From contig JABUSY010000021.1 in the NCBI GenBank assembly GCA_021442455.1, positions 80,630-144,629 of the forward strand: a stretch of 64,000 bases of DNA. Direction: 5' to 3'. Source of the stretch: Lachnospiraceae bacterium (GTDB taxonomy: Bacteria > Bacillota > Clostridia > Lachnospirales > Lachnospiraceae). Each line of letters opens with the position of its first letter. Position 1 is the stretch's first letter. Made by a program: the position numbers and the translations under genes. Positions 10,187 through 60,672 of the stretch are shown one piece after another. The notes under the pieces were generated by a model that saw only the letters and a list, made by a program, of their open reading frames with translations, was not told where the DNA came from and did not search any database.

Positions 10187-10193
10187 CGGATGA

Positions 10194-14250: not shown

Positions 14251-14334
14251 TAAGCTTGGCAGACAAGTTCTCAGGGAGTTCCAAGAGAGATGAAGAAAAA
14301 TTTGCTACAGCTGAAGAGAAGGACTGAAGAGTGA

Positions 14335-21278: not shown

Positions 21279-24113
21279 ATGATAAAGAATCAGGGTGATC
21301 AATTTATTAAAATACGTGGGGCGGAAGAGAATAATTTAAAAAATTTGAATGTGGACATCCCAAGAAATGAATTTGTGGTGCTTACGGGCTTATCTGGTTC
21401 TGGGAAAAGCTCGTTGGCTTTTGATACCATTTACATGGAAGGGCAGAGACGTTATATGGAGAGTCATTCTTCTTATGTCCGGCAGTTTCTGGGGCAAATG
21501 GAGAAGCCTAACGTGGAAAGTATAGAAGGACTTCCGCCTGCCATTTCCATTGACCAGAAGTCGACAAACCGGAATCCGAGATCTACAGTTGGGACTGTGA
21601 CAGAAATTTATGATTATTTTCGTTTGCTCTATGCGCGTATTGGCATTCCTCATTGTCCAAAATGTAGACGTGAGATCAGAAGACAAACTGTAGATCAGAT
21701 GGTGGAAAAAATTCTCTCACTGCCTAAGCATACTAAGATTCAGCTACTGGCGTCTGTAGTACGCGGCCGCAAAGGGCGCCATGAAAAGATTCTGGAGCAG
21801 GCGAAACGAAGTGGTTTTGTTCGTGTGATGGTGGATGGAAACTTATATGAGCTATCAGGAGAAATCAATCTGGATAAGAATCTAAAACATAATATTGAGA
21901 TCGTGGTAGATCGGTTGATAATTAAGAAAGGTCTTGAGAAGAGGCTGACGGATTCCATTGAAACGGTTTTGGGGCTTTCAGATGGGCTTCTGATTCTAGA
22001 TACCATGGACGGAAAAACGCAAAGCTTTAGTCAAAGCTTTTCTTGTCCAGACTGTGGAATTAGCATAGATGAGATAGAACCCCGGAATTTTTCTTTTAAT
22101 AATCCATTTGGAGCTTGTACGGAGTGTTTTGGACTGGGGTATAAGATGGAGTTTTCGGAGGAACTGATGATTCCTGATTCGAGCCTTTCTATTTTGCAGG
22201 GAGCCATTGCCGTAATTGGTTGGAAATCCTGTATAGATAAAGGAAAATTCACCAGAGCGATTCTGGAAGGATTGGCGAATGCCTATCATTTTTCATTGAA
22301 TACGCCTTTTTGCGATTATCCGAAGGAAATACATGATGTGATTATTTACGGAAGTAAGGGTAAGAGTGTAAAGGTACATTACAAAGGTCAGCGGGGAGAA
22401 GGGATTTATGATGTGGTTTTTGAAGGTTTGATTAAAAATGTGGAGCGCCGTTACCGTGAAGCTGCTTCAAAGAGCAGTAGACAAGAATATGAGACATTTA
22501 TGCGTATCATACCTTGTCCGGTTTGCCATGGGCAAAGATTGAAGGCAACCTCTCTTGCTGTGACGGTAAGTGATAAGAATATTTTTACAGTGGCGAACCT
22601 ATCTATCGGAAAGTTGACGGCATTTTTGAAAGAAATAAAGCTAAGTGATCAGCAGAAGTTGATCGGTCAGCAAATTCTGAAAGAAATTAAGGTCCGAGTG
22701 AGCTTTCTAATGGATGTGGGTTTGGATTATCTAACTTTGGCCAGAGCAACCGCTACACTTTCGGGTGGAGAAGCCCAGCGGATACGTTTGGCTACCCAAA
22801 TTGGTTCCGGTCTGGTGGGGGTAGTTTATATACTGGATGAGCCAAGTATCGGCCTACATCAGAGGGACAATGAGAAATTGTTAGCGACATTGAGGCATCT
22901 GCGGGATCTAGGAAATTCTCTGATTGTGGTGGAACACGATGAGGATACGATGCGTGCGGCGGATTGTGTCATAGATATTGGTCCGGGAGCCGGGGAACAC
23001 GGAGGAGAATTGGTAGGTATTGGTACGGCAAAAGATTTGGTGAACAATGAGAGATCTATTACAGGAGCCTATCTGGGTGGAAAAATCAAAATTCCGGTAC
23101 CAGAAATCCGTAGGAAGCCAACTGGTTGGTTGAAGGTATTGGGGGCACGAGAAAATAATCTGAAGAATATTGACGTGGCTTTTCCTCTGGGAGTGATGAC
23201 TTGCGTTACCGGTGTCTCTGGTTCAGGAAAAAGCTCTTTAGTCAATGAAATCCTTTATAAGAGGCTAGCCAGAGATTTGAATCGAGCATGCCTGATAGAG
23301 GGCAGATACAAGGATCTAGAAGGCTCGGAGCAGCTAGATAAAGTGATTGATATCGATCAGTCGCCTATAGGCCGAACGCCTCGGTCCAATCCAGCTACCT
23401 ATACGGGTGTATTCGACATGATCCGCGATCTATTTGCCGTTACGGCGGATGCCAAAATGAGAGGATATAAGAAAGGAAGGTTCAGTTTCAACGTGAAAGG
23501 CGGCCGCTGCGAGGCCTGCAGCGGCGATGGAATTATAAAAATAGAAATGCATTTTCTTCCAGATATATATGTGCCTTGTGAAGTTTGTCAGGGAAAACGT
23601 TATAACCGTGAGACTTTAGAAGTAAAATATAAAGGAAAAAACATTTATGACGTATTGAACATGACGGTAGAGGAAGCATTGGATTTTTTTGAATATGTTC
23701 CTTTTATACACAAAAAAATAGAGACCCTGAACGATGTAGGACTTTCGTATATCCGACTAGGACAGCCCTCGACTACTTTGTCAGGCGGGGAGGCACAGAG
23801 GATCAAGTTAGCTACGGAGCTTTCTAAGCGAAGTACGGGAAAGACAATTTATATTCTGGATGAGCCTACGACGGGGCTGCATTTTGCAGATGTCCATAAG
23901 CTGGTGGATATTTTGAAGCGGCTGTCGGAGAACGGTAACACAGTGATTGTGATTGAACATAATCTGGATCTCATCAAAACTGCCGATTATATTATTGACA
24001 TCGGACCTGAAGGCGGAGACCGGGGAGGTATGGTCATTGCAAAAGGAACGCCGGAGGAAATCGCGTTGAATCCCGTATCTTATACTGGACAGTGTGTTAA
24101 AAAATATTTGTAA
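21279..24113 (+). CDS. uvrA: Excinuclease ABC subunit A
   Basis: 944 aa; two Walker A motifs '[26 protein letters not shown]' and '[15 protein letters not shown]', zinc-finger CxxC pairs, '[19 protein letters not shown]'. Confidence 0.98.
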
Positions 24114-24189
24114 AGGTACTCTTATTTGTCCTCATATTTTAGTATAAATATTTATGTAGGGTAACTGTTATTGAATAGACAGATAAGAA

Positions 24190-24996
24190 AACTACTATGA
24201 TATCTGTAACAGATATGGGGAGCGACCTTGATAGCAAACCAGTATTTTGATATATGCGAAAGGTAAAGGTATCGTATTGAGAGAGCTGTCGGTAGTGGTT
24301 TATAATAAAGCCTTTGTGTCAGCGTCAGAGTACGCTCTTTGATTATGTGATTACAGAGAAGATGCTTCGGTATTTTCTTCAGAAATTCATAGACGGAAAA
24401 TCTTATGATAGCCAAGAATTGTCATTTGTGTACTCAGTGTTGTGACGGAATTTGTGAAAGAGATTACCTATCAGGTGACGTCAGAGGTAAAATTCTGAAG
24501 AGGTTTCCCCTATAGTCGAGATTATCTGAATCGGTATAGATATCACGAAGTTATTCAGTAAGATAATCGTCGATATTTTGGGTAATACTGTGTTCAGAGG
24601 AATTGGTTGTATCTCCCTCAGTTCGTATTGTTGGTGAGAATTTCAACAAGGCGATATATCCGTTATGTGAATAAACTATGGGTTTGTTCGTCAGTGAACA
24701 GAGAGCAGAAATGGCAATAAAATCGGAAGAAATTACCAGCAGTCGGCGCTGATGATCATAGGTATTAAGGGAAGAGATGTAGTAATTGGATTGTCAAACC
24801 AGTGATACTTACCGGGGAGATTATAGAAGCTTTAGTGGGATATAGTTAGTTACTTTGTGGTGGCCGCTGTTCTATACTGTTCTAGAGAATAACTTCGTCA
24901 AAATTGGCGGTCAACGTATCAGAACGGCGGATCGTGTTAACCAGAGGGCGTTTTACTGAACGAGATAGAGAAAGTGATCAGTGAACGTATGGGAAA
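24190..24996 (+). pseudogene. mreB: MreB/Mbl rod-shape actin relic
   Basis: Frame-shifting pieces 'DYVITEKMLRYFLQKFIDGKS', 'GIDITKLFSKIIVDILGNTVFRGIGCISLSS', 'IIGIKGRDVVIGLSNQ' (cf. RGRDLVTGLPK), 'SERRIVLTRGR' and 'VLLNEIEKVISERMG' (cf. DRGIVLTGGGALL..LD.LI.ERTG). Confidence 0.75.
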
Positions 24997-24999
24997 CAA

Positions 25000-26100
25000 T
25001 ACATTATGAGGAAAATGGATATACGGTACTAAATTTTAAATGCGGGTAAAGATAAGATAACCTGCGTGCGAAGCGTTTAGTCCGAAAATTCTTCAGAATG
25101 GAACTTTGGTGCTGGAACGCTTATCCGAGCAATAGAGCGAATAAAGAAGATTAGAGCAGTACTGGCTGTTAAAATTATTCATTGATTTGCTGAGAATACT
25201 TTGAGAATGATGGATAATTGGAGGGAGCACTTTTCGGAAATTCAGAGAATCAGTGATGGGAAAGCAAATGATTAACAATATAACTTTTCCATAACAGGGA
25301 AAACCTGATAAGCTAACAGAAGGGAATTCAAGGAAAGTTGATTTTAAAATCGTGGATGAAATTTCAGAGCGCGTAGGTATTCGAATTGATTCGGAATACA
25401 GGATTCGTAGTAATCTTTATACTAAGTTATGCCAAGCGAACAGGGATAATATATATTTTTTAAAGGAAAAAGCTGCTCTACAGAACCAGAGAGCTTTTTG
25501 GAGTTAAAAAGGAAGTAATCGATCAGTATCTGCGAGATATGGTCATTGATCGGAAGATTATTGTAAAAAATGAACATATCTTATACTAGACAGTCTGATT
25601 TTCTGAAATTCAATACTACGAAAATGCTTCAAAAACTAAAGAAAGGGAGCGGAGGGTCGCTCTGGATATTATACAGATCAAAGTTGTTGCGTAAGCTGTC
25701 TGGAATGGAAAATGGATATGTTTTTTCTCGCTGTACCTATATTGAACGGGACTGGTCAGAGCATAACAAATGTTACTGGATATGAGGCTTCTACGATTCA
25801 CAAGTCGCTGAAACTGTTTAAAGTTGTAGAAAACTCAATTATTAATTTTGGGAAAATTGATAAAGGTGGCATATGAGGAAGGCAGCTTTCAATGCATGAT
25901 ACTGACCCGAAAGTGCTGGTATTTTTTAGACATAGATAATCAAGAGGAAGGTGAATCGTTATAGGACTCCTATTATAGTATTGACCAGTGCCTGAGACGT
26001 ATGCCATTTTTAGAGATGATCAGAGTTCGTTGCAGATGACAATCTATGCAATGGTTGTGGAAGAAGAGATTGTAGGGGGGAGAAAGATTGGCAAGAATAT
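25000..26100 (+). pseudogene. recD2: RecD2-like DNA helicase relic
   Basis: 'YEENGYTVLNFKCG', 'VDFKIVDEISERVGIRIDSEYRIRSNLYTKLCQANRDNIYFLKE', 'VTGYEASTIHKSLKLFKV' (cf. ATGYEARTIHRLLEL). Stops and frameshifts throughout. Confidence 0.72.
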
Positions 26101-26215
26101 CAATATGCTATATTTAAAGCAGTTTCCCTATCCGTGATGTGCTTCTGGAGTGATAAAGAGTTATTTATTATATATACAGAAAATGTGTCGGAAAAGGCCT
26201 GTAGCTTTCAAAAAG

Positions 26216-26345
26216 GTTAGTGTGTCTGTACTGCAGGCAATTTTTGAAACACAAAAATCAGGAATCTTATCAGAACTGTGGAAGGAAAAGACATAGTTAT
26301 GAGCGAACATTCACCCCATTTTCTTATTTGGGTCTGATTCAGGAA
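26216..26345 (+). pseudogene. comF: ComF-like amidophosphoribosyltransferase relic (N-terminal zinc-ribbon region)
   Basis: 'CLYCRQFLKHKNQESYQNCGRKRHSYERTFTPFSYLGLIQ' resembles the ComF 'CxxC...CxxC.KRHSYERG.A.F.Y' region. Follows the recD2 relic. Confidence 0.5.
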
Positions 26346-27706
26346 ATAGAGAAGATGGATTCAAACGCGGATATAACTAGATTAAAGAATGAGCCGTCTA
26401 GTTATTTTAATTGTCCAGCATGTCCGTGAAATACTGTGCTGTTTTGAGTATAAACAAACCACAGTCCAAAAAAAACAAAAAATTATGTATAGAGAAATCT
26501 AAATTTAGTATAGTCTTTTATAAATTGCAAAAATCTAAAGCTAGTTTAGGGGATATATTGCTGAGGAATAATGTCAAAACACCGGGAGTACTAGCAGCAT
26601 AGATATGTTAGTTTCATTGTTAAAAAAGACTTTAATTCTGTTTGAATTAGCCTCGGAGATATTGGTAATGATAAATTCCTTTTCATTTTTTTTGAAATAT
26701 GGTACAATATATAGGTATACACTAAAGAAGACAAGGTTGTTTTTAATGCTTAGGATTGTCCATTAGGAGAAAAAATAATGGAAACAAGATTTTGTTTTGA
26801 CAATCATTGTAGTTTATATTATAGATTTTTTGATAGCTTATTATGTGAATGATCTGCTGGATTCTTTTTTCGGCATTTGTTTTGAATTATGGATTTTGTG
26901 ATTGTTTATATGATTTTTAGCTTCAGATATCGCTAGCGTACAAGAAGAAGAAAATAGGAAGATGTTAAAAATATATTATGAAAACTGTTTCTTTTGAACG
27001 GATTGTATAACGGGGAAATGAATAAGTTTGTTGGGAAAAATGAAAAATATTGGTATTCTGAAAATTACAGCATTTTATAGAATGATGAGCTTTTCTCTGA
27101 CTATGGTCAAATTACGTTATTGCTAGAAGTTTTATCTTACCTTAATCTTTTATGGTGGCCATGCTTTGCTCAATTTTGATTGAGATACTAGGAAGTGTTC
27201 ATGATCGTTTTATATTGTTTTGGTATGAGATCTAGAAGTGGGTAAGATTTATGGTGTTGATGTCCCCTACTGACTAGTAAATAATAAGACAATATTGTTT
27301 TTCGGTAATCTCATGTGTAGCTGTTGTGTTAGTTGCTGTAAGAATTTTGGAAGTTATCTGAGACTTATCATCTGGGAAGATGTATCTTTGTAGCGGGTTG
27401 TAGCATTTTTTATGTATTTCTTAGAACTGCTGGAGAGATTGTTTATGAAGGTAGATATTCAGTGGTTAGTATTTCATTGTGGTTGTAATTTTCTTCGAAT
27501 TATGAGCGTTTAAATAACAATCATAGATAAGAAGTAGCTTTTAAAATTAATTTTGAGAGTATATATGGATATTAACAGAAAAAAACATATAAACGTTAAG
27601 GCTTTAGCAGCTGCATTCAATCTTTTGAAAGATGTGAGTTTTATGTCAAAATTTTAAAATGTCTAAAATTTTTAAAACTGGATCTGTGTTGAAAGGAAGT
27701 GTCACC

Positions 27707-28521: not shown

Positions 28522-28866
28522 ATGCAAATCAATTGGCTCAGTAAACTGACAAAGTCTTTGATTGTGAAAATTGTTTCAATAATTATTGCAATTGCAATTT
28601 GGCATTTTGTAAATAATTTTAATAGTCCAATTCAGATAAAGAAGCATAGTGCCCAGCTAAAACTAACAAACAAATCTTATCTTTCTCAAGGAAATCATAT
28701 TTATCGAATTACGGATAACTATCAAACGCTTCCTGTTTATATCAAGGGGTATCGGTCAAAGTTACAAAAAAAATACTTTGAAAAGATAAAGGTTATGGAT
28801 GATCTATGGATCGAAAAAGAAATCTGTTTACCTGTTCCTACTTTAGGTCAGTTGTCCAGGCTTTAA
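28522..28866 (+). CDS. cdaR: YbbR-domain protein (CdaR-like), apparently truncated
   Basis: Position directly after cdaA; N-terminal TM 'LIVKIVSIIIAIAIWHFVNNF' followed by one YbbR-like unit 'TLPVYIKGYRSKLQK'. Only 114 aa, followed by non-coding sequence. Confidence 0.6.
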   Translation: MQINWLSKLTKSLIVKIVSIIIAIAIWHFVNNFNSPIQIKKHSAQLKLTNKSYLSQGNHIYRITDNYQTLPVYIKGYRSKLQKKYFEKIKVMDDLWIEKEICLPVPTLGQLSRL

Positions 28867-31035: not shown

Positions 31036-33780
31036 TTAACCACTATATTGGGCAATATTTTTAGGTTTTATGAACTTTGTAGAAAAAATTATAGCTATCA
31101 AAAACCAGATTGTCCAACAAATAACGGTTATTATAATTGCTTCTTTGAATAATGGATGCTGATAGCTAAGATTAATATTATGTTCCCCGGAACATAGGGT
31201 TATTGCAATAAAGCCATAATCTGCACGGAGCAGTTCAGTTTTCTGCCCGTCTATGGTTGCTTTCCAGCCTTGTTCATATGGGATTGGGAAGAATAATAAT
31301 CCTTCTTCAGGCACTGATGCATTACAGAGCAGTCGGCTGTCATTTCCGGTATCATCTATTGATATCACAGCGTTAGAAGAATACTGGGTATTTGTAGAAT
31401 AATAAAAACGAAAGTTGGAGATGGAAGTTGTCAAGTTTTGCGCATGAGTTGTAAAATACAGGTTATTTACATCTTCCGGAAATGTTATTTTTACAGAAGT
31501 TGGCTTTCCAGCAATGACGGTTGCAATATAGGGAGATGCGTTATTAGTGGTACGAATTTCTATATTAGAAGATTCATTGGCAGTGATATCAAAAACCGTT
31601 GTTATTTTTTTGAGAGAAGAAGAACTGTTATTGAGAAAAGGTATGGCTGCAAAAGGGACAGACCATGATAAACTTCCATCATTCGAAGTTGAAATTATTT
31701 TCGGAAGGGAAGATTTGTCAATAGTTAAATCATTTGTAGCTATATAGGCATAATCGTCAATATTAGCGAACGATGAAAAAAAGTTCTTTCTTTTATCCAT
31801 AATTATGTACTGTGAAAGCAAAGCCTCTGTATCCACTGTATCTTTCATAGATTCGAACTCGAAAGAAGAAATAGTTTTGGTATAAAATTTTGCGAAGGAT
31901 GAATATTTCTGGTTTTTATACAGATAGAGACTGCCAAACTGGTGGATTAACTCATAGTTAGTGTCCGGAAAATTCGAATTTTTGGAGATCAGATATTTGA
32001 TACCCAGAAGGGTAGCATATCCACTATCTCCGACAATCTGCCGAAAATTTAAGTGGGCATTATTAATATAATATAAATTAGGCAGAAGTTTATCCACAAA
32101 TTCTAAAATATTTTTATTTTCTGTAGAATTATAGGTGCTAATTCCGCGATAATATTGCCCTAGAGCATCCATGCACTGAGAGCCTGCGGCATAATCTTTT
32201 TCCATTCGATAAAAAGTGCTGTCTGTTTCGTGAAGGTAGGTTAACAGTTCCTGAACATCATTGCCATATAAATTTTCAAAATAATCATCCCCCAGTTTGA
32301 TGCTTCCTCTGCCAGCTATGCTGCTATATGTATCACTAGCAACATTCAGGCCAATGGCTAGCATTAATAGTGTAAAGGCTATAGTTTGCATACGTTTAGT
32401 TTTTGAACGAGATAGCAGTATTAACAAAAAGATCATTCCTAAAGCGGTTATGTAAAGGAATATTGCATTGCAAAAAAAAGTTAGTGTAGAGGCTTTGCAG
32501 AGGGAAGACAGATATACGAATGTAAAAATCAGAGAGGCTATAATACCACCTATTAAATTGAATTTTTGGAATTTCAGAATATAATCTAGCATATAAGCAA
32601 CTAATAGAGCAAAAAAAGGCATGAGCACAAATGTATGCCTGGAAAAAGAATAAGTAAATGCATTAAATATCATGCTTCCAAACATGATTAATAGGGAGAA
32701 TCCCCCCATTGCTACGGCAATAAACCAGACTATTTTTTGGCGAAATTCGGTTTTTATTTTGGGAAAGGTGATGATAAATTGGATAAGTAAAATTAAAAAA
32801 AGAGATGAAAAAAAAAGGTTAGGTGCTTCATAATAATTGATGTATCCATGATAAGGAGCAGTCGGACTGCCAACTCCTTGCAAATTTCCAGAAAGTAGTT
32901 TATGTAGTAGTGTTTTGTAATAGTTAGAAGGATAAGGTGCAAAGGAGGTCAGACATCGCTCAAAGAAACTTTGCTTGTTGTTTATACGAGCAGAGACATT
33001 ATATATCAAGGCATATGAAGGCAGTAAGTTTAATAATCCCATTCCTACACCAAGCAAAAGAGAGGTACATTGCTTACAGAATGTATTCAAAAAAGAACAT
33101 CCCTTCTGTTTGCGGAGACTTAGTATTCTTAAGAAAATATAAAATATGGTTATAATTAATACCATATAAGAAAAATAATAGCTAGATAGTATCATCAGTG
33201 CTGTCCATAGGGAGACGCCTATGGACAGGTGTTTTTGGTGAAAAGATCTTTCCACCAGCATTAAGAGAATTGGGAGAAAAACAAGGATGATACTGAACTG
33301 ATAATGCTGTCCCCAAACGATTAAAAAGCCGTTAAAAGCATAAAGGTATGCAGCTACAATTTTCCCTTTTGCTGAAAAAGAAAAGCAAGAAAGGAATAAC
33401 CATATAGCCAGAGCAGAGAGAAGTATTGTTAAAATATGAATATATATCAGACATCTGGGCATCACTTGCGGTCCAAAGAGTATGCCAGCTAAATATATTA
33501 GCCAGAATGTAGGAGTAAAAAGATTCATCTGATATATACTTGTGCCGAAACCATTAGTAAAATCCCAAAAAGAAAAATTCCCGTTTCGGATATGATGGAC
33601 AATGGAGTTGTATTGCATAATATACTGTTCAGTGGTATCAGAGCCGATATCACGAAATAGAAATACATAATTTCCAAAGATATACTGATGATATACTGCA
33701 TAGGCAGTGAATAAAACAAGGATAGAAAGCAGTATTTTTGGATGTTTTTTAAGCCGATTTACTATTTTTTTATGATACAT
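31036..33780 (-). CDS. YfhO-family multi-membrane GT-C-like protein
   Basis: 914 aa, many TM segments; 'FLFRDIGSDTTEQYIMQY', 'WDFTNGFGTSIYQMNLFTPTFWLIYLAG', C-terminal 'EEGLLFFPIPYEQGWKATIDGQKTELLRADYGFIAITLCSGEHNINLSYQHP'. Confidence 0.88.
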   Translation of the reverse strand: MYHKKIVNRLKKHPKILLSILVLFTAYAVYHQYIFGNYVFLFRDIGSDTTEQYIMQYNSIVHHIRNGNFSFWDFTNGFGTSIYQMNLFTPTFWLIYLAGILFGPQVMPRCLIYIHILTILLSALAIWLFLSCFSFSAKGKIVAAYLYAFNGFLIVWGQHYQFSIILVFLPILLMLVERSFHQKHLSIGVSLWTALMILSSYYFSYMVLIITIFYIFLRILSLRKQKGCSFLNTFCKQCTSLLLGVGMGLLNLLPSYALIYNVSARINNKQSFFERCLTSFAPYPSNYYKTLLHKLLSGNLQGVGSPTAPYHGYINYYEAPNLFFSSLFLILLIQFIITFPKIKTEFRQKIVWFIAVAMGGFSLLIMFGSMIFNAFTYSFSRHTFVLMPFFALLVAYMLDYILKFQKFNLIGGIIASLIFTFVYLSSLCKASTLTFFCNAIFLYITALGMIFLLILLSRSKTKRMQTIAFTLLMLAIGLNVASDTYSSIAGRGSIKLGDDYFENLYGNDVQELLTYLHETDSTFYRMEKDYAAGSQCMDALGQYYRGISTYNSTENKNILEFVDKLLPNLYYINNAHLNFRQIVGDSGYATLLGIKYLISKNSNFPDTNYELIHQFGSLYLYKNQKYSSFAKFYTKTISSFEFESMKDTVDTEALLSQYIIMDKRKNFFSSFANIDDYAYIATNDLTIDKSSLPKIISTSNDGSLSWSVPFAAIPFLNNSSSSLKKITTVFDITANESSNIEIRTTNNASPYIATVIAGKPTSVKITFPEDVNNLYFTTHAQNLTTSISNFRFYYSTNTQYSSNAVISIDDTGNDSRLLCNASVPEEGLLFFPIPYEQGWKATIDGQKTELLRADYGFIAITLCSGEHNINLSYQHPLFKEAIIITVICWTIWFLIAIIFSTKFIKPKNIAQYSG

Positions 33781-33938
33781 TTTCGAACTCCCTTTTCCGG
33801 CATTGTCTGAGCCATTCTAGCACAATTTTTTTAAAAAAGCAAGTCATAGTATCATAGTACTTGAAGAGAAGACAAAAGTGTGGTACACTATGTATGATAT
33901 GGTCACAGTTATTCTGAATTTGCAGGAAGAGAAGAATA

Positions 33939-36092
33939 ATGAAAACGTTAATGATATTAGGAGCTGGTTATACCCAAATGCCTCTGTATGAAGTGGCAAG
34001 AAAACTTGGAATACGTACGATTGCTGCCAGTATACCTGGGCGCTATCCAGGGTTTGCTTGTGCAGATGAGAGTGTGTTTGTTGACATCGCTGATCCGGAG
34101 GCAGTAACGGATGCTGTGAGGGAAAAGAATGTAGACGGCGTTGTCACTTGTGGTATGGATTTTGCTATGCGCGCAATCGGAGCTGCTTGTGAAGCCCAGC
34201 GTTTGCCGGGCCCTACCCGTGAGGCGGCAGAAAAAGGATCAAATAAATATGAAATGAAAAAAGCACTGACCGCGGCAGGGGTTCAAACTGCCAAATTTTA
34301 TTGCATTCATAATAAAAAAGAGTTGGAAGCAGCCATGGATAGGCTGCCTTTTCCACTTATTGTGAAGGCAGTGGATCTCATGGGTAGTCGGGGAATCTTC
34401 CGCAGCAATACGAGAGAAGAGGCCAGGGAAAATTTTTGTAAAAGCATGGAAGTTACCAGGAAAGATTATTGTCTGATTGAAGAGTTTATTGAGGGTGAGC
34501 TTTTCGGTGTAGAAGCGATGGTTCAGAACGGTAGGATTCTGTTCATGCTTCCTAATAACACAGAAGTTTTTGTGAGCAAAACGCCGACACCGGTTGGACA
34601 TTCTGTACCTTTCAGAGAGTTGGATGTGCTAGGAAAACAGATAGAAAAGCAGACAGAACTAGCTCTCCGAGCAATAGGACTGGATAATTGTCCGTTAAAT
34701 TATGATTTGATAAAAAAGGATGGTAAGGTTTATGTGATTGAGTTGGCAGGACGTTCCGGAGCCACAGGTCTTCCTGAGATGACTGGTATTTATTATGGAT
34801 TGAATTATTATGAAATGATCATCCGGCTGTCTCTTGGAGAAGATGTAAGCAGTTATTTTGCTAAATCTCTTTCACGCACTCCGAATCTAACACATACGAT
34901 AATCTCTGTACGGCAGGGAGTTGTTAGGAATATTGTCAATGATAATAGAATGGACGAAGATTCGATTAAATTTTCCTTTAATATAGAGCCTGGAGATGAA
35001 GTACGTCCTTATACGAATGGGCGTGACAGGATTGGTCAGGTGATTATTAAAGGAGAAAGTTTAGAACAGTGTGAAAAGCGTTTGGAAGAAATCTTGCGTA
35101 ATCTTCATCTGGAGCTGAGAGGGGATCTGTCTCTCATTCAAACGCCCATTCAAATAATGGAAGAATATAGGGAAGATAGTAACCAGATTTATATAAAACG
35201 GGAGGATCTACTACCATTTTCGTTCGGAGGAAATAAAGTTAGATTTGCAGAAGCATTTCTGAAGGATATGGAACGAAAACATTGTGATGCCATGCTCATG
35301 TATGGAGGTTATCATTCGAATCTTTGTCGGATTTTAGCTGCTGCCTGTGCCAGGAGGGGTATTCCTTGCAGTATGATCCATAATGTGGATGACGTTGATC
35401 CAAAGGAAATAAGTTGCAATATGCATTTAATCAAGGCTTCAGGTGTGCGGGAATACAGATGTCGTAAGGGAGAGATAGCGCCGTTAGTTCAGGATGCTTT
35501 GAATGATTTCCGCGAAGAAGGATATAACCCTTATTATATTTATGGTAATATTTACGGATATGGAAATGTTACGGTGCCCATGGAATCTTATGTGGCGGTA
35601 TATCAGGAAATTTTACAGCAGGAAAGGGAACTGGCTTGTCATTTTGATTATATTTTTTTGGCTTCTAGCACAAATACTACGCAATCTGGACTGTTAGCTG
35701 GTCATTTGTTAGTGAGAGACGCGAGAAAGATTGTAGGCATATCAGTAACGCGAAGTTCGAAACGGGCTGTTAGGGTGATTCAGAGAAATCTACAAGAATA
35801 TCAGAATAAACGGGGAATCAATTTTCCAACATTCACAGAATCACTGATTTTGGTAGAGGATAAATATCTGGCAGGCGCTTATAGCCGTTGGCATGAAAAA
35901 ATCATGGACGTTATACAGAGTGTATACAAGACAGAAGGAATTGGCCTGGATCCTATATATACAGGGAAGGCTTTCTGGGGCATGTTGGAATATCTAAAGG
36001 AGAAAAAAATTACAGGAAAAAAAATTCTGTTTTTGCATACAGGAGGAACGCCATTGTTTTTCGATATTTTGCCGGCATTCAATAACCATTAG
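33939..36092 (+). CDS. Fusion protein: N-terminal ATP-grasp ligase + C-terminal PLP enzyme (ACC deaminase/D-cysteine desulfhydrase-like)
   Basis: N-half: 'MILGAGYTQMPLYEVARKLGI', 'PFPLIVKAVDLMGSRGI', 'LIEEFIEGELFGVEAMV', 'VIELAGRSGATGLPEM'. C-half: 'YIKREDLLPFSFGGNKVRFAEAFL', 'MYGGYHSNLCR', 'LHTGGTPLFF'. Single uninterrupted 717-aa frame. Confidence 0.88.
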   Translation: MKTLMILGAGYTQMPLYEVARKLGIRTIAASIPGRYPGFACADESVFVDIADPEAVTDAVREKNVDGVVTCGMDFAMRAIGAACEAQRLPGPTREAAEKGSNKYEMKKALTAAGVQTAKFYCIHNKKELEAAMDRLPFPLIVKAVDLMGSRGIFRSNTREEARENFCKSMEVTRKDYCLIEEFIEGELFGVEAMVQNGRILFMLPNNTEVFVSKTPTPVGHSVPFRELDVLGKQIEKQTELALRAIGLDNCPLNYDLIKKDGKVYVIELAGRSGATGLPEMTGIYYGLNYYEMIIRLSLGEDVSSYFAKSLSRTPNLTHTIISVRQGVVRNIVNDNRMDEDSIKFSFNIEPGDEVRPYTNGRDRIGQVIIKGESLEQCEKRLEEILRNLHLELRGDLSLIQTPIQIMEEYREDSNQIYIKREDLLPFSFGGNKVRFAEAFLKDMERKHCDAMLMYGGYHSNLCRILAAACARRGIPCSMIHNVDDVDPKEISCNMHLIKASGVREYRCRKGEIAPLVQDALNDFREEGYNPYYIYGNIYGYGNVTVPMESYVAVYQEILQQERELACHFDYIFLASSTNTTQSGLLAGHLLVRDARKIVGISVTRSSKRAVRVIQRNLQEYQNKRGINFPTFTESLILVEDKYLAGAYSRWHEKIMDVIQSVYKTEGIGLDPIYTGKAFWGMLEYLKEKKITGKKILFLHTGGTPLFFDILPAFNNH

Positions 36093-36164
36093 TGTGTTGC
36101 CATACCCTGAAACAGGTAGGTATTTGTCTTTGATTGGCTATCAGAGTGCAAATATCAGAAAAGG

Positions 36165-36866
36165 TTGGAAGTGTCAATGAAAAAAATAGCTATTTTACAG
36201 TCAAATTATATACCGTGGAAAGGTTATTTTGACATCATCAACATGGTAGATGAATTTATACTCTACGACGATATGCAGTACACCAGGCGTGATTGGCGAA
36301 ATCGAAACAAGATTAAGACGTCGCAAGGCTTACAATGGCTGACGATATCTGTGCTCAATAGTGGAAAATTTTTACAGAAAATTAATGAAACAGAGGTGAT
36401 TGATTCTCAGTGGTGTCATGACCATTGGCGGGCGATTTCGTTGAATTATGCAAAAGCTCCATATTTTAAAATATATGCAGAGCTCATGGAAGAAATATAT
36501 CATAGATGTGAGAAAGAAACACATTTGAGCAGAATCAATTATCTATTTTTGACTAAGCTCTGTGCTCTTCTGGATATACATACGAAAATTACCTGGTCTT
36601 CGGATTATAAACTGGTGGATGGGAAAACGGAGCGTTTGGTTGCTCTTTGTCAGTCTGCCGGTGGAAATGTATATCTATCAGGCCCTATTGCAAAAAAATA
36701 TATTGTAGATTCATTATTTGAAGAGGCTGGGATCACTCTACAATATATGGATTATTCTGGTTATCCGGAATATCATCAGCTGTTCGGACCTTTTGAACAT
36801 GGAGTAACCATTCTGGATCTGCTGTTTAATGAAGGCCCAAAGGCCCGTAGGTTTATGAAAAGCTGA
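36165..36866 (+). CDS. WbqC-like family protein
   Basis: 'KKIAILQSNYIPWKGYFDIINMVDEFILYDDMQYTRRDWRNRNKIKTSQGLQWLTI' is the characteristic WbqC N-terminus. Confidence 0.88.
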   Translation: MEVSMKKIAILQSNYIPWKGYFDIINMVDEFILYDDMQYTRRDWRNRNKIKTSQGLQWLTISVLNSGKFLQKINETEVIDSQWCHDHWRAISLNYAKAPYFKIYAELMEEIYHRCEKETHLSRINYLFLTKLCALLDIHTKITWSSDYKLVDGKTERLVALCQSAGGNVYLSGPIAKKYIVDSLFEEAGITLQYMDYSGYPEYHQLFGPFEHGVTILDLLFNEGPKARRFMKS

Positions 36867-36905
36867 TTTGGAAAGTCAAACGATTGAATTTAAAATTGTG
36901 AGAAA

Positions 36906-37277
36906 ATGCATATGAATAATTCCAAGAAAGTTGATAGAATTTCAGTTCCTATATTCATGCTACTTCATGTAAGTTTGTTGTTTTCTTCATTGAGTGGAAT
37001 CTGTTCAAAAATGGCGGCTTTTCAGAAGTTCCTTTCTTTACCATTTTTGTGGTGGTATATTACAGTTTTGATAATCATGTTCGCATATGCCATTGTATGG
37101 CAGCAAATATTGAAACGAATATCGCTGAGCATCGCTTATGCTAACAAGTCGGTGGGGCTAATCTGGGGAATGTTGTGGGGAGGTCTTATTTTTCAGCAAA
37201 AGATTACTTGGAATATGATATTGGGTGCAGGTGTAGTATTCATGGGAATTTGTTTGGTGGTAACTTTTGATGAGTGA
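36906..37277 (+). CDS. Small EamA/DMT-type membrane protein, ArnE/ArnF-like subunit 1
   Basis: 123 aa, four predicted TM segments; overlaps the next DMT gene. Confidence 0.7.
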   Translation: MHMNNSKKVDRISVPIFMLLHVSLLFSSLSGICSKMAAFQKFLSLPFLWWYITVLIIMFAYAIVWQQILKRISLSIAYANKSVGLIWGMLWGGLIFQQKITWNMILGAGVVFMGICLVVTFDE

Positions 37278-37626
37278 ATTTCTTGTTTCTGTTTGTGTTT
37301 TGTTGATTTCAGTCTTTATATCAGCCTTTTCTCATATTTTACTGAAAAGAGCTGCTAATCGATTTTATGAATCGAAACTGAAAGAATATTTGAATCTACC
37401 GGTAATTTTTGCATATGGATTGTTTCTCATTTCCACTGTTTTGACGATATTGGCTCTTAAGGTTATACCATTGTCATTGCAGCCAATTTTGGAATCTACT
37501 AGCTATATTTATATTTCAGTAATGGGATATTTTTTTCTGAAAGAACAGTTCAATCGCAAAAAAATAGCGGGCCTGGCTCTTATTTTGTTAGGTATTTTTA
37601 TATATTCCGTCAATATCGCAGGATAG
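37267..37626 (+). CDS. Small EamA/DMT-type membrane protein, ArnE/ArnF-like subunit 2
   Basis: 119 aa, four TM segments, 'LKVIPLSLQPILESTSYIYISVMGYFFLKEQFNRKKIAGLALILLGIFI'. Confidence 0.75.
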   Translation: MMSEFLVSVCVLLISVFISAFSHILLKRAANRFYESKLKEYLNLPVIFAYGLFLISTVLTILALKVIPLSLQPILESTSYIYISVMGYFFLKEQFNRKKIAGLALILLGIFIYSVNIAG

Positions 37627-37643
37627 ATAAAAGGAGAATATAC

Positions 37644-38603
37644 ATGTTAGTTTCTATCGTGATTCCGTGTTATAATTCAGAATATACCATTAGGCAGTTG
37701 GTAGAACTGTGTATGAAAGAATTTAATAAAATGGATGATTATGAATGTGAGATGATTTTGGTGAATGATTATTCCTCGGATAGCACATTCACGATGATCA
37801 AAAAAATGACTGAGAAATATCCTAATGTAATTGGAGTAAATTTATCGAAAAATTTTGGACAGCATGCGGCAATAATGGCCGGCCTTCAGTATATCAGCGG
37901 TGATTTGGTAATAGGTATGGATGACGATATGCAGAACCATCCGTCTCAACTTTGGCAATTTTTGGAAAAGGAAAAAGAAGGATATGATGTTGTGTTTGGG
38001 ATCTTTAAAAAAAGAAAATTTTCTGCATTTAAAAATCTAACGGGAGCAATTAGCCGTTTTCTGCTGTGGCATCTGTTGGAACGTCCTAAGAAAATTCAGA
38101 TGAGCAGCTTTTGGCTAGCCAAAAGATATGTGATCGACAGGGTCAAAGAATACGAAGGATGTAGCGTATTCATACAGCTTTTATTTTTTCGGACGACACA
38201 CAATATGGCTAACATTGATATCGAACATTACGAACGGGAGGCTGGTCAATCTCATTATAGATTTAAAAAAAGTTTAAAGTTGTTTATGTCTTTCATGAAC
38301 TATTCAGTTACTCCTTTGCGCTTGGCTACTTTTTTTGGCATGTTTTTTTCAATAATAGGTTTTATGGCGGCATTGGTAGTGCTAACTCATAAATTCATAA
38401 ATCCTGCTGTAGCAATTGGCTGGTCTTCATTAGTGTGTATTTTGTTAATTTTGTTTGGTATTGTGTTCCTGATGCTAGGTATTATGGGAGAATATGTCGG
38501 AAAGCTGATATTAACCAGTAGTAAGACACCGCAATATGTAATTCGAGAAACATTGAAGGGGAATGATAGTGAAAAAAAAGGAAAGAATGATGCTCGATTT
38601 TAA
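37644..38603 (+). CDS. GT2 polyprenyl-phosphate glycosyltransferase, ArnC/CsbB/GtrB-like
   Basis: 'SIVIPCYNSEYTIRQLVELC', 'VNLSKNFGQHAAIMAGLQYISGDLVIGMDDDMQNHPSQLWQFL' and two C-terminal TM segments. Confidence 0.88.
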   Translation: MLVSIVIPCYNSEYTIRQLVELCMKEFNKMDDYECEMILVNDYSSDSTFTMIKKMTEKYPNVIGVNLSKNFGQHAAIMAGLQYISGDLVIGMDDDMQNHPSQLWQFLEKEKEGYDVVFGIFKKRKFSAFKNLTGAISRFLLWHLLERPKKIQMSSFWLAKRYVIDRVKEYEGCSVFIQLLFFRTTHNMANIDIEHYEREAGQSHYRFKKSLKLFMSFMNYSVTPLRLATFFGMFFSIIGFMAALVVLTHKFINPAVAIGWSSLVCILLILFGIVFLMLGIMGEYVGKLILTSSKTPQYVIRETLKGNDSEKKGKNDARF

Positions 38604-39726
38604 CAGACCGTTGTATCTAGGAAAAGAATTGAAATATATAGAAGAGGCAGTACGAAAAAATCAAATTTGTGGTGACGGAGCTTTTACGAAACAATGTTCC
38701 GACTGGATGAAGCAAGAGCTTCATACGAAATATAGTCTGCTGACTACATCCTGCACTCATGCTCTAGAAATGGCGGCATATCTAGCAGATATAAAATCTG
38801 GAGATGAAGTGATTATGCCGTCCTATACTTTTGTTTCAACCGCTGATGCATTTGTTCTTCGAGGGGCAAGAATCGTGTTTGTAGATGTGCATCCAGAAAC
38901 TATGAATATAGATGAACGTCTGATTGAAGATGCTATTACCGAGAGAACCAGAGCTATCGTTCCGGTACATTATGCAGGTGTATCTTGTGAGATGGAAACA
39001 ATTATGAATATTGCAAAACGCTATGGATTGAAAGTGATTGAAGATGCTGCTCAAGGGATTCACGCTTATTATAAAGGGAAAGCTTTGGGAACGCTCGGTG
39101 ATTTTGGATGCTTCAGTTTCCATGAGACAAAAAATTATACTATGGGCGAGGGAGGAGCTCTTCTGTTTCAAGAGGATAAATACATGGAACAGGCAGAAAT
39201 TCTTAGAGAAAAAGGAACTGACAGAAGTAAATTTTTCCGCGGTCAGGTGGATAAATATACCTGGGTAGCTTTTGGATCTTCTTATTTGCCAAGCGAGTTG
39301 AATGCCGCATATCTTTGTGCTCAGCTGGAGGCTTCCGTTGAAATCGATAATAAACGAATGGCTATTTGGAATTATTATCATGAAAGTTTAAAACCACTGG
39401 AAGAAGTAGGATATATTGTGCGGCCTGAGGTGCCAGAGTACGCAGTTCATAACGCACATATGTATTATATTAAGGTTAAAGATTTAGAAACGAGAACCCG
39501 TCTGATCGCTTTTTTACGGGAACAGAAGATCTGCAGTGTCTTTCATTACATACCATTGCATTCTTCAAAAGCCGGAAAGAAGTTTGGACGCTTTCACGGT
39601 GATGATATTTACACGACGAATGAGAGTAAGCGACTGATGCGGCTACCCATATATTATTCTCTAAATCTAGAAGAAGCCGCATATGTAATAGCATCTATTC
39701 GTAAATTTCCAGATTTCAGATTATGA
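38590..39726 (+). CDS. wecE: DegT/DnrJ/EryC1 aminotransferase, WecE/RffA-like (dTDP-4-amino-4,6-dideoxygalactose transaminase)
   Basis: 'NQICGDGAFTKQCSDWM', 'GDEVIMPSYTFVSTADAFVLRGARIVFVDVHPETMNIDERLIEDAI', PLP Lys in 'GCFSFHETKNYT', 'EKGTDRSKFFRGQVDKYTW'. Very close to remembered E. coli WecE. Confidence 0.9.
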   Translation: MLDFNRPLYLGKELKYIEEAVRKNQICGDGAFTKQCSDWMKQELHTKYSLLTTSCTHALEMAAYLADIKSGDEVIMPSYTFVSTADAFVLRGARIVFVDVHPETMNIDERLIEDAITERTRAIVPVHYAGVSCEMETIMNIAKRYGLKVIEDAAQGIHAYYKGKALGTLGDFGCFSFHETKNYTMGEGGALLFQEDKYMEQAEILREKGTDRSKFFRGQVDKYTWVAFGSSYLPSELNAAYLCAQLEASVEIDNKRMAIWNYYHESLKPLEEVGYIVRPEVPEYAVHNAHMYYIKVKDLETRTRLIAFLREQKICSVFHYIPLHSSKAGKKFGRFHGDDIYTTNESKRLMRLPIYYSLNLEEAAYVIASIRKFPDFRL

Positions 39727-45552: not shown

Positions 45553-46494
45553 ATGATGAACGATAGCAAAACGATAGTTGAAAATGTTATGAAAGAGTGT
45601 ATAGTTGATGTATTAATACCAGTTTATAAACCGGGTCCGGAGTTTACAGAGCTACTCCGGCGCCTGGATAATCAAGTTTATCCTATTCATAAAATATTAA
45701 TTGTTAATACCGATGAAAGTTACTGGAACGCCTTATATGAAAAAGAGTGTCCAGGCTGTGAGGTGATTCACATCTCAAAAGAGCAATTTGACCATGGTGG
45801 AACACGGCATTGGATGGCGGAACGATCTGGTGCAGAAGTCATGGTTTTTATGACCCAGGATGCGTTGCCAGTTGATGATAAATTAATTGGACATCTTGTA
45901 CAAGCATTTGAAAATGATAAAGTAAAAGCAGCTTATGCAAGACAATTAGCGAGACCGGACTGTGAGTTATTAGAAAAATATACAAGATATTTCAATTATC
46001 CTGACAATAGTAGAATTCAAACAAAGGAAGATCTTTCTGTACTAGGAATAAAAACTTTTTTTTGTTCTAATGTATGTGCTGCATATAATCGTGAAACTTA
46101 TATGGAATTGGGAGGTTTTCCATTAAAGACTATCTTTAATGAAGATATGATTTATGCAGGAAAATTAATTAATTTTGAGTATGCAATTGCATATATATCG
46201 GAAGCAAAAGTGATTCATTCCCATAATTATACGAATAGACAGCAGTTTCAGAGAAATTTTGCCTTGGCAGTGTCGCAGGTACAGCATCCGGAGTTGTTTT
46301 CAAAATACCCTTCCGAGCGAGAAGGAATAAAACTGGTTAAAAATATATCAAGCTATATTTGCAGAGAAAAAAAACCATGGCTTATTTTTCCATTACTTTT
46401 CAAAAGTGTTAGCAAGTATGCTGGGTATTTGTTGGGTAAACGATATAGAAAATTACCAAAATGGCTGATTAAAAAAATATTGAATGAATTTTGA
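45553..46494 (+). CDS. GT2 rhamnosyltransferase-like protein
   Basis: 'VDVLIPVYKPGPEFTELLRRLDNQVYPIHKILIVNTDE', 'FDHGGTRHWMAERSGAEVMVFMTQDALP', 'FFCSNVCAAYNRETYMELGGFPLKTIFNEDMIYAGKL'. Start placed at 45553. Confidence 0.85.
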   Translation: MMNDSKTIVENVMKECIVDVLIPVYKPGPEFTELLRRLDNQVYPIHKILIVNTDESYWNALYEKECPGCEVIHISKEQFDHGGTRHWMAERSGAEVMVFMTQDALPVDDKLIGHLVQAFENDKVKAAYARQLARPDCELLEKYTRYFNYPDNSRIQTKEDLSVLGIKTFFCSNVCAAYNRETYMELGGFPLKTIFNEDMIYAGKLINFEYAIAYISEAKVIHSHNYTNRQQFQRNFALAVSQVQHPELFSKYPSEREGIKLVKNISSYICREKKPWLIFPLLFKSVSKYAGYLLGKRYRKLPKWLIKKILNEF

Positions 46495-48110
46495 ATGATG
46501 TGAAATAAATATTTTGGACAGCTGATTAAGAAAAAAATGATTTTGAAAGTGTTATCTCAACGGGGAATGGTAAAGGAAAATTTACAGAATTTTTTTCTTT
46601 GTTTTCAGGATCTTATACAGAATAATTTTTTACTCTTGCTTTGATCATCTTACTAGATTATATTTGGGAACGTTTTTTAAAATGTCGAGAGATTTGAAAT
46701 GAGACTTTAATGGTATTTTGGAGGGTTGTGTGAAATATTGGATTTTAAATTACTATAAATATGATAGAGATAATACATAAAAGAAGCAGTATAAACATTT
46801 TTAAAGAGAGGTTATCTCATAGGAATATTTTATTTGGTTCATGTTTATCGAGATGATATTGTTCTTGAAGCAAATCTTGAAAATTTTTGCGTTATATATG
46901 TATTTTCTAGAAGATTATAGTCGGTTTCATTGATGATCTTGTCATCTAATTGTATCTCAATCAATGAAAGTATATTTAAGTAAATATGAATTAGATCATA
47001 TTAGGAGTTCAAAGATTTTGTATTGACTTGACAAAAAAAGTTTTGTTGGAATATCAATTTGGCATAATAGTTGATGTAATTTTGGGGTATGTCGGCAGAG
47101 AATTGATACATCAACCTTTTGGCTGATACATTACAGATACATTGTGTTTTTCAGGGGATCGTAACATGGCAATAGATTTTGCTAAATGTGTGAAATTAGT
47201 TAATGAAAATTTTATATCTTTAAATCACTGATTGAATTTTGAAGAAGATAGTGTACACTTTTCGCTTGTTTTGAATTTTGCCCACTGTAAGATCAAGAGG
47301 TCATGTGATAAAGGTATGTAGGAGGAGTTTCAAGAGGAATAGAAGCAGTTGATGCTTATCAGAAGATAGAAGATGCTTAAAAATCAGGGATTTTTATGAG
47401 TTTGATGATCTGATCCAGATAAGAATTAGATGCTTCCTAAAATCTTTGAGAAGCACATCATTATCAATAAGTGAAAATTTTTAATTAGAAATGCTTCCAA
47501 TGAGTATCAGAACAACAAGATGAGGATATGACTATAGAAGTTATTTAAAAACAGATGAAGAAATTGATACAGTCTGGGAAATACTTTTTTTACCATATGT
47601 AATAAATTGCATTGCAGTCATCAGAATGTTTTTGAAAATATCATAAAATATTTATAGGCTTGTTTTCTGAATCACTTTTGAAGGTTTCAATGTTTAGAAA
47701 AGTGTAATTATTATTGAAGTCGAAGTGATTAAAGAAGAGAATTTTTGGATATTAATCGGAAGAAGGACGTCAAAATTGTAGTGCTTACTGATCATATTTA
47801 TGAAACGGCTGAAGAAAGGGGAATGATGTAGGACCAAATCTATGTATTCATATCTGTTTTGAAGTAATGGTTTTATACACAATAATTCCATTTTAGTTTT
47901 CTGAAAATATGATACGGAAAGGACTGAAAGATTTTTCCATAACGGAAATAATTAACGTATGTTCAAGAAAATGATGTCGCTGGCAAATAAAGTGGAGAAT
48001 TATTTTCAGAAAAGCATCTGAATATTCGGGTGAAATATGGGGATCAGTTCTATGATTTTATTTGACTCTAAGACAATTTTGATAGAATGCATATAATAGG
48101 AGGGATTAAA

Positions 48111-49806: not shown

Positions 49807-50889
49807 ATGAAAACGTATCTAGTAACGGGGGGAGCTGGTTTTATTGGTTCAAACTATATTCATTACCTGTTTAAAAAATATGATGATTCAATCAAAATTA
49901 TTAATGTGGATAAGCTAACCTATGCAGGGAACTTGGAAAATCTTAAAAGTATAGAAAATAGAGAAAATTACAAATTTATAAGAGCCGATATCTGTGATCA
50001 TGAAGTAATTAATAAAATATTTGAACTAAATGAAATCCAGAGAGTGGTACATTTTGCAGCAGAAAGCCATGTGGATAGGAGTATTAAAAATCCAGAGATT
50101 TTTATACAAACCAATGTACTGGGTACATTGGTGATGTTAGAGGCTGCAAAAGCTGCCTGGAAACTTTCAGATGGGACTTTTAAAGCAGATCATAAGTTCT
50201 TACATGTATCTACGGATGAAGTATATGGTTCTTTGGAAGAAAATGCAGCATATTTTTATGAGACTACTCCGTATGCGCCGCACAATCCGTATTCAGCTAG
50301 CAAGGCTTCTTCTAATATGTTGGTTAAGTCATATATGGATACTTATCAGTTTCCAGCTAATATTACCAACTGTAGTAATAATTATGGCCCTTATCAATTC
50401 CCTGAGAAGTTAATTCCTTTGATTATTAATAATGCACTCCAAGGAAAACAGCTTCCGGTGTATGGAGATGGGGAAAATATACGTGATTGGCTATATGTGA
50501 GAGATCATTGTAAGGCTATAGATATGGTTCAGGAAAAGGGGGATCTTTTTGAAATCTATAATATTGGAGGACATAACGAAAAACAGAATATTCAGATTAT
50601 TCATATTATTATTAAAATTTTACGAGAAATAATGCAGGATCAGGATCCGAGGAAAAAGAATATAGATGAAAATTTGATTACTTATGTGACAGATCGAAAA
50701 AGTCATGATAGACGATATGCGATTTCGCCTGACAAGATTAAGGCAGAAGTGGGCTGGTATCCAGAAACAATATTTGAACAAGGGATCAAAAAGACAATTG
50801 TTTGGTTTTTGGAACATGAGGATTGGCTGAAGAATGTCACCAGTGGTGAATATCAGCGTTATTATGAAGAGATGTACAGTGCCAGATAA
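49807..50889 (+). CDS. rfbB: dTDP-glucose 4,6-dehydratase
   Basis: '[21 protein letters not shown]', 'STDEVYGSL', '[12 protein letters not shown]', '[19 protein letters not shown]', '[14 protein letters not shown]'. Confidence 0.96.
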
Positions 50890-50942: not shown

Positions 50943-51812
50943 ATGAAAGGTATCATTTTATCCGGTGGTTTAGGTACTCGTTTGCATCCATTGACCAAGG
51001 CTGTTTCGAAACAACTTATGCCGGTATATGACAAGCCGATGATCTATTATCCACTCTCTACATTAATGTTGGCTGGAATTCGGGAGATTTTGATTATTTC
51101 AACACCGAAAGATTTACCGGTATTTCAAGAGCTCTTAGGGACTGGAGAAGAATTAGGCTTGTCTTTTTCATATGAAATTCAAAAAGAGCCGCGTGGTTTG
51201 GCCGATGCTTTTATAGTCGGAAAAAAATTTATTGGAAATGATCCAGTGGCACTCGTACTTGGCGATAATATTTTTTATGGTCAAAGTTTTTCTAAAGTTT
51301 TATGTGTGGCGGCAGGACGCAAAGAAGGAGCAACGATCTTTGGATATTATGTAAGAGATCCTCGAAGATATGGTGTGGTCGAGTTTGATGAAAATGGAAA
51401 GGCACTTTCTATAGAGGAAAAGCCTGAACATCCAAAATCAAATTATGCTGTACCTGGATTGTATTTTTATAATAATCAAGTGGTAGAGATTGCTGAAAAT
51501 ATAAAACCTTCTGCTCGTGGGGAGATAGAAATTACCAGCGTCAATAATGAATATTTGCGCAAAGGGATTTTACATGTTGAGATTTTAGGAAGAGGATTTG
51601 CATGGTTGGATACTGGTAATCATGACTCTCTTTTGGATGCAGCAGATTTTGTAGCGGCTTTTCAGAAACGCCAGGGGCTTTACATTTCCTGTATTGAGGA
51701 AATAGCTTATAAAAGTGGGTTTATAACTAAAAAGCAGTTGATAAAACTAGCACAGCCTTTATTAAAAACTGCGTATGGACAATATTTATTGGAAGTTGCA
51801 GAGGGACTGTAA
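50943..51812 (+). CDS. rfbA: Glucose-1-phosphate thymidylyltransferase
   Basis: '[57 protein letters not shown]', '[15 protein letters not shown]', '[17 protein letters not shown]'. Confidence 0.97.
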
Positions 51813-60660: not shown

Positions 60661-60672
60661 AAGGAGGCTATC

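Follow-up and report, generated by a model that had tools for sequence, protein, structure and literature searches.

What does a gut bacterium build with a gene cluster that sets an ATP-grasp ligase, fused to a pyridoxal 5'-phosphate (PLP) enzyme, among genes for making and exporting an amino sugar? The question is raised by positions 31036-39726 of a 64,000-nucleotide stretch (hereafter the window) of a Lachnospiraceae genome (GenBank assembly GCA_021442455.1, contig JABUSY010000021.1). Genes for a YfhO-type membrane glycosyltransferase, the ATP-grasp::PLP fusion, a WbqC family protein, two small drug/metabolite transporter (DMT) proteins, an ArnC-like glycosyltransferase and the sugar 4-aminotransferase WecE stand there side by side. 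We find that this set forms a module conserved in other genomes, and that the position held by WbqC is held in relatives by other enzymes. Our preferred reading, to which we give a probability of roughly 55%, is that the genes at this locus produce a single modified amino sugar and couple it to a polymer of the cell surface, the ligases amidating or acylating that sugar. An original prediction made from the sequence alone had proposed much the same; its single module, its route through WecE and the Rml enzymes and its lack of an acetyltransferase are supported, whereas its view of WbqC as a helper and of the PLP domain as ACC (1-aminocyclopropane-1-carboxylate) deaminase-like is not.

Conservation was assessed in 79 loci (labelled L plus a number) retrieved from public genomes with the ATP-grasp domain of the fusion (ATP-grasp A) as the sole query, of which 41 were kept after near-duplicates and loci with short flanks were dropped. 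They were compared by Fisher's test with 37 control loci around the polysaccharide gene PF02397 in genomes of the same phylum; since these controls span broader genera than the ATP-grasp loci, the p-values are only indicative. An ArnC-like family 2 glycosyltransferase (GT2) lies near ATP-grasp A in 37 of 41 loci and in none of the controls (p=4e-18), WecE in 22 of 41 versus 0 of 37 (p=2e-8), each DMT protein in 21 of 41 versus 1 of 37 (p=8e-7), and YfhO in 8 of 41 versus 0 of 37 (p=0.006). Compact sets in the order RmlA-RmlB-WecE-ArnC-ATP-grasp-DMT1-DMT2 occur in two loci, L092 and L103; L016 has such a set together with YfhO. The same fusion is present in two of three same-genus genomes searched, at 68-70% identity (the public matches are from Candidatus Scatomonas), and in the third (L013) a similar cluster encodes the ATP-grasp and the PLP enzyme as two unfused proteins. 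The genes do co-occur elsewhere, and these conserved neighbourhoods support the claim that they form one system: the module is real, widespread and recurrent in related gut bacteria. A 607-residue frame in L014 was set aside as the antisense of the GT2b gene.

How would such a module deliver a sugar to the cell surface? Profile searches bore out every coordinate and identity on the original gene list, as well as the tight packing of the plus-strand genes, which are separated by at most 85 bases or overlap slightly. The ArnC/PgfS-like GT2, a polyprenyl-phosphate glycosyltransferase (37644-38603, plus strand), has ArnC (E 2e-50, 171 bits) and PgfS (E 3e-48, 165 bits) as its best NCBIfam matches, both under the equivalog cut-offs, and ends in two hydrophobic, transmembrane segments. 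Just upstream on the same strand are the two small EamA/DMT proteins, whose open reading frames (ORFs) overlap by 11 bases and which are proposed to be the halves of a flippase: an ArnE-like protein at 36906-37277 (EamA E 7.6e-6; ArnE E 2.5e-4) and an ArnE/ArnF-like protein at 37267-37626 (EamA 32.7 bits, cut-off 28.2; ArnE E 2e-5, ArnF E 8.5e-5). The proposed final transferase is the YfhO-type protein, a PgfM2-like membrane glycosyltransferase of the GT-C fold (31036-33780, minus strand; PF09586, 235 bits). In the host genome, estimated to be 98% complete, there is one ArnC-like gene (the next match scores 27 bits) and one YfhO, and the DMT pair are the only EamA proteins, so these families offer no other candidates for loading, flipping and transfer. 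GtrA-type flippases are absent from the genome (Wzx-type flippases were not searched for). Together, these observations point to a self-contained load-flip-transfer system.

The sugar itself is suggested by WecE (ORF 38563-39726, likely start ~38590, plus strand), which scores 617 bits against TIGR02379 (cut-off 434.85) and 614 bits against PRK11706 (cut-off 375). The expectation that rfbA and rfbB belong to the same cluster was confirmed by RmlB, a dTDP-glucose 4,6-dehydratase predicted to supply WecE (49807-50889, plus strand; TIGR01181, 473 bits, cut-off 365), and RmlA, a glucose-1-phosphate thymidylyltransferase (50943-51812, plus strand; TIGR01207, 484 bits, cut-off 361). RmlA and RmlB would make deoxythymidine diphosphate (dTDP)-4-keto-6-deoxyglucose, which WecE would aminate to dTDP-4-amino-4,6-dideoxygalactose, as had been proposed and as family membership supports. 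Likewise, the neighbouring ORFs that were scanned contain no N-acetyltransferase domain, in keeping with the claim that no acetyltransferase stands nearby.

The 717-residue fusion (33939-36092, plus strand), with its ATP-grasp, LAL_C2 and PALP domains, suggests what could happen to the amine. Its ligase domain (residues 1-394, 33939-35120) matches LAL_C2 at 47 bits (cut-off 29.4) and also exceeds the cut-offs of ATP-grasp_3 and ATP-grasp_4, and thus shows the pairing of ATP-grasp with LAL_C2 expected of L-amino acid ligases. Its nearest solved relative over the full domain is PDB entry 4dim (E 1.5e-96), itself annotated by homology alone; among characterised proteins the nearest is BL00235, an L-amino acid ligase (3vot, E 4.8e-20), with BacD more distant. 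Lys103, Lys143, Glu181, Glu182, Glu268 and Arg272 are invariant in ATP-grasp A.

The second half of the fusion (residues 401-717, 35139-36092; PALP, 92 bits) is a PLP fold-type-II domain resembling D-cysteine desulfhydrase and CuyA, and keeps the PLP lysine and the catalytic serine. Glu295 and Leu322 are required for ACC deamination, and an E295S/L322T double mutant of ACC deaminase gains D-cysteine desulfhydrase activity (PMC4048297). The window domain and nearly all of its relatives have Thr at both positions, and the active site is therefore not of the predicted ACC deaminase kind; judged by these residues, the domain is of D-cysteine-desulfhydrase type. It scores 144.5 bits against the D-cysteine desulfhydrase family TIGR01275 (cut-off 289.4) and falls under all family cut-offs; its own reaction may be an elimination, a racemisation or something else. 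In Scatomonas-type loci the PLP domain follows ATP-grasp A in one protein, whereas in Blautia it follows another, distinct ATP-grasp (B) in this way and A is encoded alone; in L093, L098 and L013 it is a gene of its own beside ATP-grasp, ArnC and the DMT pair. The A-fused and B-fused PLP domains form sister clades. The same PLP enzyme has thus been attached to two distinct ligases, an argument for placing PLP, A and B in one pathway.

Which gene stands beside ATP-grasp A proved informative about WbqC (36165-36866, likely start 36177, plus strand; PF08889, 262.6 bits, gathering cut-off 21.3). Across the 38 loci with enough flank in the clade of A that includes the window, this slot holds ATP-grasp B in 22, WbqC in eight, both in none and neither in eight (Fisher p=2.6e-4, uncorrected for shared ancestry). 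The two alternate within Blautia (L053 versus L047), within metagenome-assembled genomes of Oscillospiraceae (L062, L063 and L066 versus L056-L059) and around Scatomonas (the window, L029 and L030 versus L035), so that several switches are needed. In the sister clade of A the slot is mostly filled by a PaaK-like ligase, a relative of phenylacetate-CoA ligase (E 4e-13). Counted over all loci, the occupants are B in 26, the PaaK-like ligase in 15, WbqC in eight and a hexapeptide transferase in one, with nine slots empty; two kinds occur together only in L093 and L098, each of which has two tandem ATP-grasp modules. Because ATP-grasp B and the PaaK-like enzyme, two of the three usual occupants, are ligases that activate carboxylates, WbqC too is probably an amide- or acyl-forming enzyme. 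Rather than the helper originally envisaged, it is more likely an alternative to the second ligase, with which it swaps. A slot filled by three unrelated enzyme types offers what would be the first testable hint of WbqC family function.

Two arrangements of the slot deserve separate mention. The tandem modules of L093 and L098 run YfhO-YfhO-PLP-ArnC-ATP-grasp-DMT1-DMT2 and then ArnC-ATP-grasp-PaaK. The sister clade (L071-L107, for example L079 4185-6693) has a conserved ArnC-ATP-grasp-PaaK-like set in other Clostridia, usually with no WecE or DMT nearby, and its product is probably a decoration of a similar kind bearing another acyl group.

Does the wider WbqC family keep similar company? We surveyed 20 Bacillota loci found by family search; some seeds were drawn from these very loci, which biases the counts slightly upward. 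DegT aminotransferases and PIG-L deacetylases represent two routes by which an amine is exposed. One or the other occurs in 17 of 20 WbqC loci versus 15 of 37 controls (p=0.002), PIG-L alone in 7 of 20 versus 3 of 37 (p=0.024), and ATP-grasp in 5 of 20 versus 1 of 37 (p=0.017). The nearest WbqC proteins from outside Bacillota, in Rhizobiaceae and Azospirillum, lie beside an ArnC/PgfS-like glycosyltransferase, an ArnF-like or other EamA protein and/or WecE (rffA), together with an acetyltransferase, of NeuD/VioB type where tested. The association of WbqC with ArnC, EamA and WecE thus spans phyla and does so without ATP-grasp. An ATP-grasp-free locus (L160, 1194-6432) reads RmlB-WbqC-ArnC-PglD-like acetyltransferase-radical SAM-methyltransferase-DMT1-DMT2-WecE, with a second, short WbqC fragment at 1194-1364. 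Contigs classed as viral also carry WbqC homologues next to sugar-modification genes (L123 3001-3690, 53% identical; L124 2412-3098, 48%), and BFVD holds several viral WbqC-like folds.

The WbqC family was originally noticed in an O-antigen cluster of E. coli (PMC5532660). Our search of the open-access literature returned nothing relevant on its function or on ATP-grasp enzymes in amino-sugar acylation. The cluster in question is, we presume, that of O121. Against the PDB, the window protein gave no matches by sequence and nothing meaningful by profile. Its AlphaFold2 model (mean predicted local distance difference test score, pLDDT, 93.9) has BshC (4wbd) as top fold match (E 4.5e-3, probability 1.00, TM-score 0.56 over the query), with weak matches further down to, among others, cytidylyltransferase and tyrosyl-tRNA-synthetase folds. 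A 2015 review describes BshC, from bacillithiol synthesis, as the presumed enzyme that couples cysteine to the glucosaminyl-malate amine, with no in vitro activity demonstrated by then (PMC4360819). We regard the modelled resemblance as a lead: BshC is twice as long as WbqC, and the best 50 fold matches of a distant WbqC model (L061, pLDDT 86.9) do not include it and are only weak and Rossmann/nucleotidyltransferase-like. Profile-profile alignment gave the two families no significant match (P 0.027, similar to that of an unrelated PLP panel family) and was not counted as support for homology. The PIG-L deacetylases of WbqC loci (L119, L120, L121, L122, L163, L167 and L168) do recall the BshB/BshC pair of the bacillithiol pathway.

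From these parts a route can be proposed. ATP-grasp A would amidate the amine of the WecE product; the acid is most likely an amino acid that the fused PLP domain provides or modifies. Judging by slot swapping, WbqC would form another amide or acyl bond within that decoration, the task falling to a second ATP-grasp in relatives and perhaps to the PaaK-like ligase in the sister group. Family membership and sole genomic copies point to the ArnC-like enzyme for loading the sugar onto undecaprenyl phosphate, to the DMT pair for flipping the lipid-linked product and to YfhO for its transfer outside, perhaps to the rhamnan or teichoic polymer first suggested; the sequence is compatible with a ligase step before or after loading. 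The 4-amino-4,6-dideoxyglucose (Qui4N) of E. coli O121 bears an N-acetylglycyl group, and Hafnia alvei 1205 carries an N-acylated alanyl group on a 4-amino-4,6-dideoxy sugar (PMC3210612), so that amide-linked amino acids on such sugars are known chemistry. A bolder generalization is doubtful: WbqC would be a new class of amino-acid or acyl ligases acting on amino sugars, interchangeable with ATP-grasp enzymes and possibly distant kin of BshC; together with the fusions it would produce aminoacylated 4-amino-4,6-dideoxy sugars, and a DMT-flippase branch of transmembrane glycosylation, widespread among gut Lachnospiraceae, would deliver them.

Several observations weigh against our preferred reading. 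YfhO is adjacent in a minority of ATP-grasp A loci, RmlA and RmlB each lie within 6.5 kb of ATP-grasp in only 9 of 41 (versus 3 and 4 of 37 controls, respectively, not significant), and WecE is missing from the fetched flank of many loci that have ATP-grasp A and ArnC. ATP-grasp folds, moreover, take many carboxylates besides amino acids. In a competing reading, ATP-grasp, PLP and WbqC act on another polymer component, such as a uronic acid amide or a free dipeptide, while WecE, ArnC, the DMT pair and YfhO alone handle a sugar that stays free-amino like 4-amino-4-deoxy-L-arabinose (L-Ara4N). ArnC/ArnE/ArnF systems do deliver a free amino sugar, L060, L065 and L067 combine ATP-grasp A and ArnC with no WecE nearby, and sequence cannot reveal ATP-grasp substrates; but the enrichment of WecE near ATP-grasp A and the compact operons that interleave both gene sets (L092, L103, L013) make such a division of labour unlikely, though well worth keeping in view. 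We consider it very unlikely that the fusion produces a free dipeptide or modified amino acid unattached to any glycan. BacD and BL00235, its nearest characterised relatives, do make dipeptides, yet the genes around it are ArnC, DMT and WecE, not resistance genes or peptide transporters. Almost no credence is due to an accidental mixture of genes with no joint function. Polysaccharide loci do gather unrelated genes, and relatives lose single members (L031 has neither WbqC nor ArnC nearby), but the set has been kept through independent rearrangements (A::PLP, B::PLP and separate PLP), its key members are sole genomic copies, and we rejected the idea on the neighbourhood statistics.

The strongest competitor concerns WbqC. 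Acetyl- or formyltransferases accompany it in L160, L166 and L211, which means that it need not act on the 4-amino group itself; these enzymes would fit an N-acylated amino acid and equally allow WbqC to act elsewhere. WbqC and ATP-grasp B might add different groups in different strains, a source of glycan variation, instead of performing the same type of reaction. This appears quite possible, though we lean the other way: gene replacement diversifies surface glycan loci, the slot is also held by a PaaK-like ligase and once by a hexapeptide transferase, and WbqC coexists with acetyltransferases in L160 and L211, but two of the other slot enzymes are ligases that activate carboxylates, and the neighbourhoods of WbqC are enriched in enzymes that generate amines.

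Beyond the module, the window encodes glycosyltransferases, WcaJ, a LytR-CpsA-Psr protein, RmlD (starting at 48087, with RmlB and RmlA downstream of the module) and an ABC exporter, which together mark the setting as a wall-polysaccharide locus. The only rmlC of the genome (51841-52404) is one open frame, ~76-78% identical to Blautia RmlC, save for an in-frame TAG at 52138; this may mean that dTDP-rhamnose synthesis was lost with RmlA and RmlB left intact for WecE, or may be an assembly error. Long stretches of the window are poor in ORFs (10186-14335, 24113-27659, 46494-48087 and 57004-60673), and the one that was checked (24113-27659) holds remnants of genes intact in relatives. A cdaR-like gene (28522-28866) is shortened to 114 residues versus ~440, and the genome measures 1.38 Mb, where others of its genus have 2.3-2.5 Mb. 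Together these features suggest that the genome is still decaying, with the decoration module left intact.

Blautia and other Lachnospiraceae of the gut, whose surface glycans are little known, frequently carry the module. If our preferred reading holds, transmembrane glycosylation in Gram-positive bacteria would gain a new type of flippase and a new chemistry, that of groups joined by an amide link and probably derived from amino acids, and the uncharacterised WbqC family, which extends from Bacillota to Rhizobiaceae, would acquire a specific testable reaction. Such a decoration could alter surface charge, as D-alanylation and L-Ara4N do.

How does the locus relate to known systems? Searches of the open-access literature found no paper describing this gene combination, but its parts recur elsewhere. 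The L-amino acid ligases BL00235 and BacD share ATP-grasp and LAL_C2 but make dipeptides, whereas the ligase here shares its locus with a sugar pathway and its polypeptide with a PLP domain. That domain shares fold, PLP lysine and catalytic serine with the D-cysteine desulfhydrase/CuyA/ACC deaminase family and has the Thr pair of the D-cysteine-desulfhydrase type, and differs in its ATP-grasp fusion and sub-cut-off scores. The WecE-WecD branch of enterobacterial common antigen shares the WecE predicted to make dTDP-Fuc4N (the 4-amino-4,6-dideoxygalactose named above); there, WecD acetylates the sugar and the glycosyltransferase that uses it is cytoplasmic, whereas no WecD-like acetyltransferase was seen here. 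The ArnBCADTEF pathway, which places L-Ara4N on lipid A, has an ArnC-like glycosyltransferase, a paired small DMT flippase, a DegT aminotransferase and an amino sugar on undecaprenyl phosphate; its sugar is N-formylated before loading, and a parallel logic is proposed here. Unlike Arn, our locus would use a dTDP-sugar made through RmlA and RmlB, ATP-grasp, PLP and WbqC proteins in place of formyltransferase and deformylase, and YfhO in place of ArnT. No ArnA, ArnD or ArnT is found among the annotated genes of the locus (the rest of the genome was not searched), and identity with the Arn system was rejected because ArnC, ArnE and ArnF score 171, 24.7 and 23 bits against equivalog cut-offs of 529, 92 and 99.

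Lastly, the locus resembles the multi-component transmembrane glycosylation systems of Gram-positive bacteria (CsbB/GtcA/YfhO and relatives), in which an undecaprenyl-phosphate glycosyltransferase of the GT-A fold with C-terminal transmembrane segments works with a small flippase and a YfhO GT-C enzyme. The GT-C component of such systems is present here as the YfhO match described above; the ArnC/PgfS-like protein is a candidate for the GT-A one. In Gram-positive bacteria, the flippases of these systems are of GtrA or Wzx type and their sugars are glucose, galactose or N-acetylglucosamine (PMC8035078). Our locus differs in that its flippase would be a DMT pair, in a genome lacking GtrA, and in that its cargo would be a 4-amino-4,6-dideoxy sugar whose pathway includes dedicated ligases.

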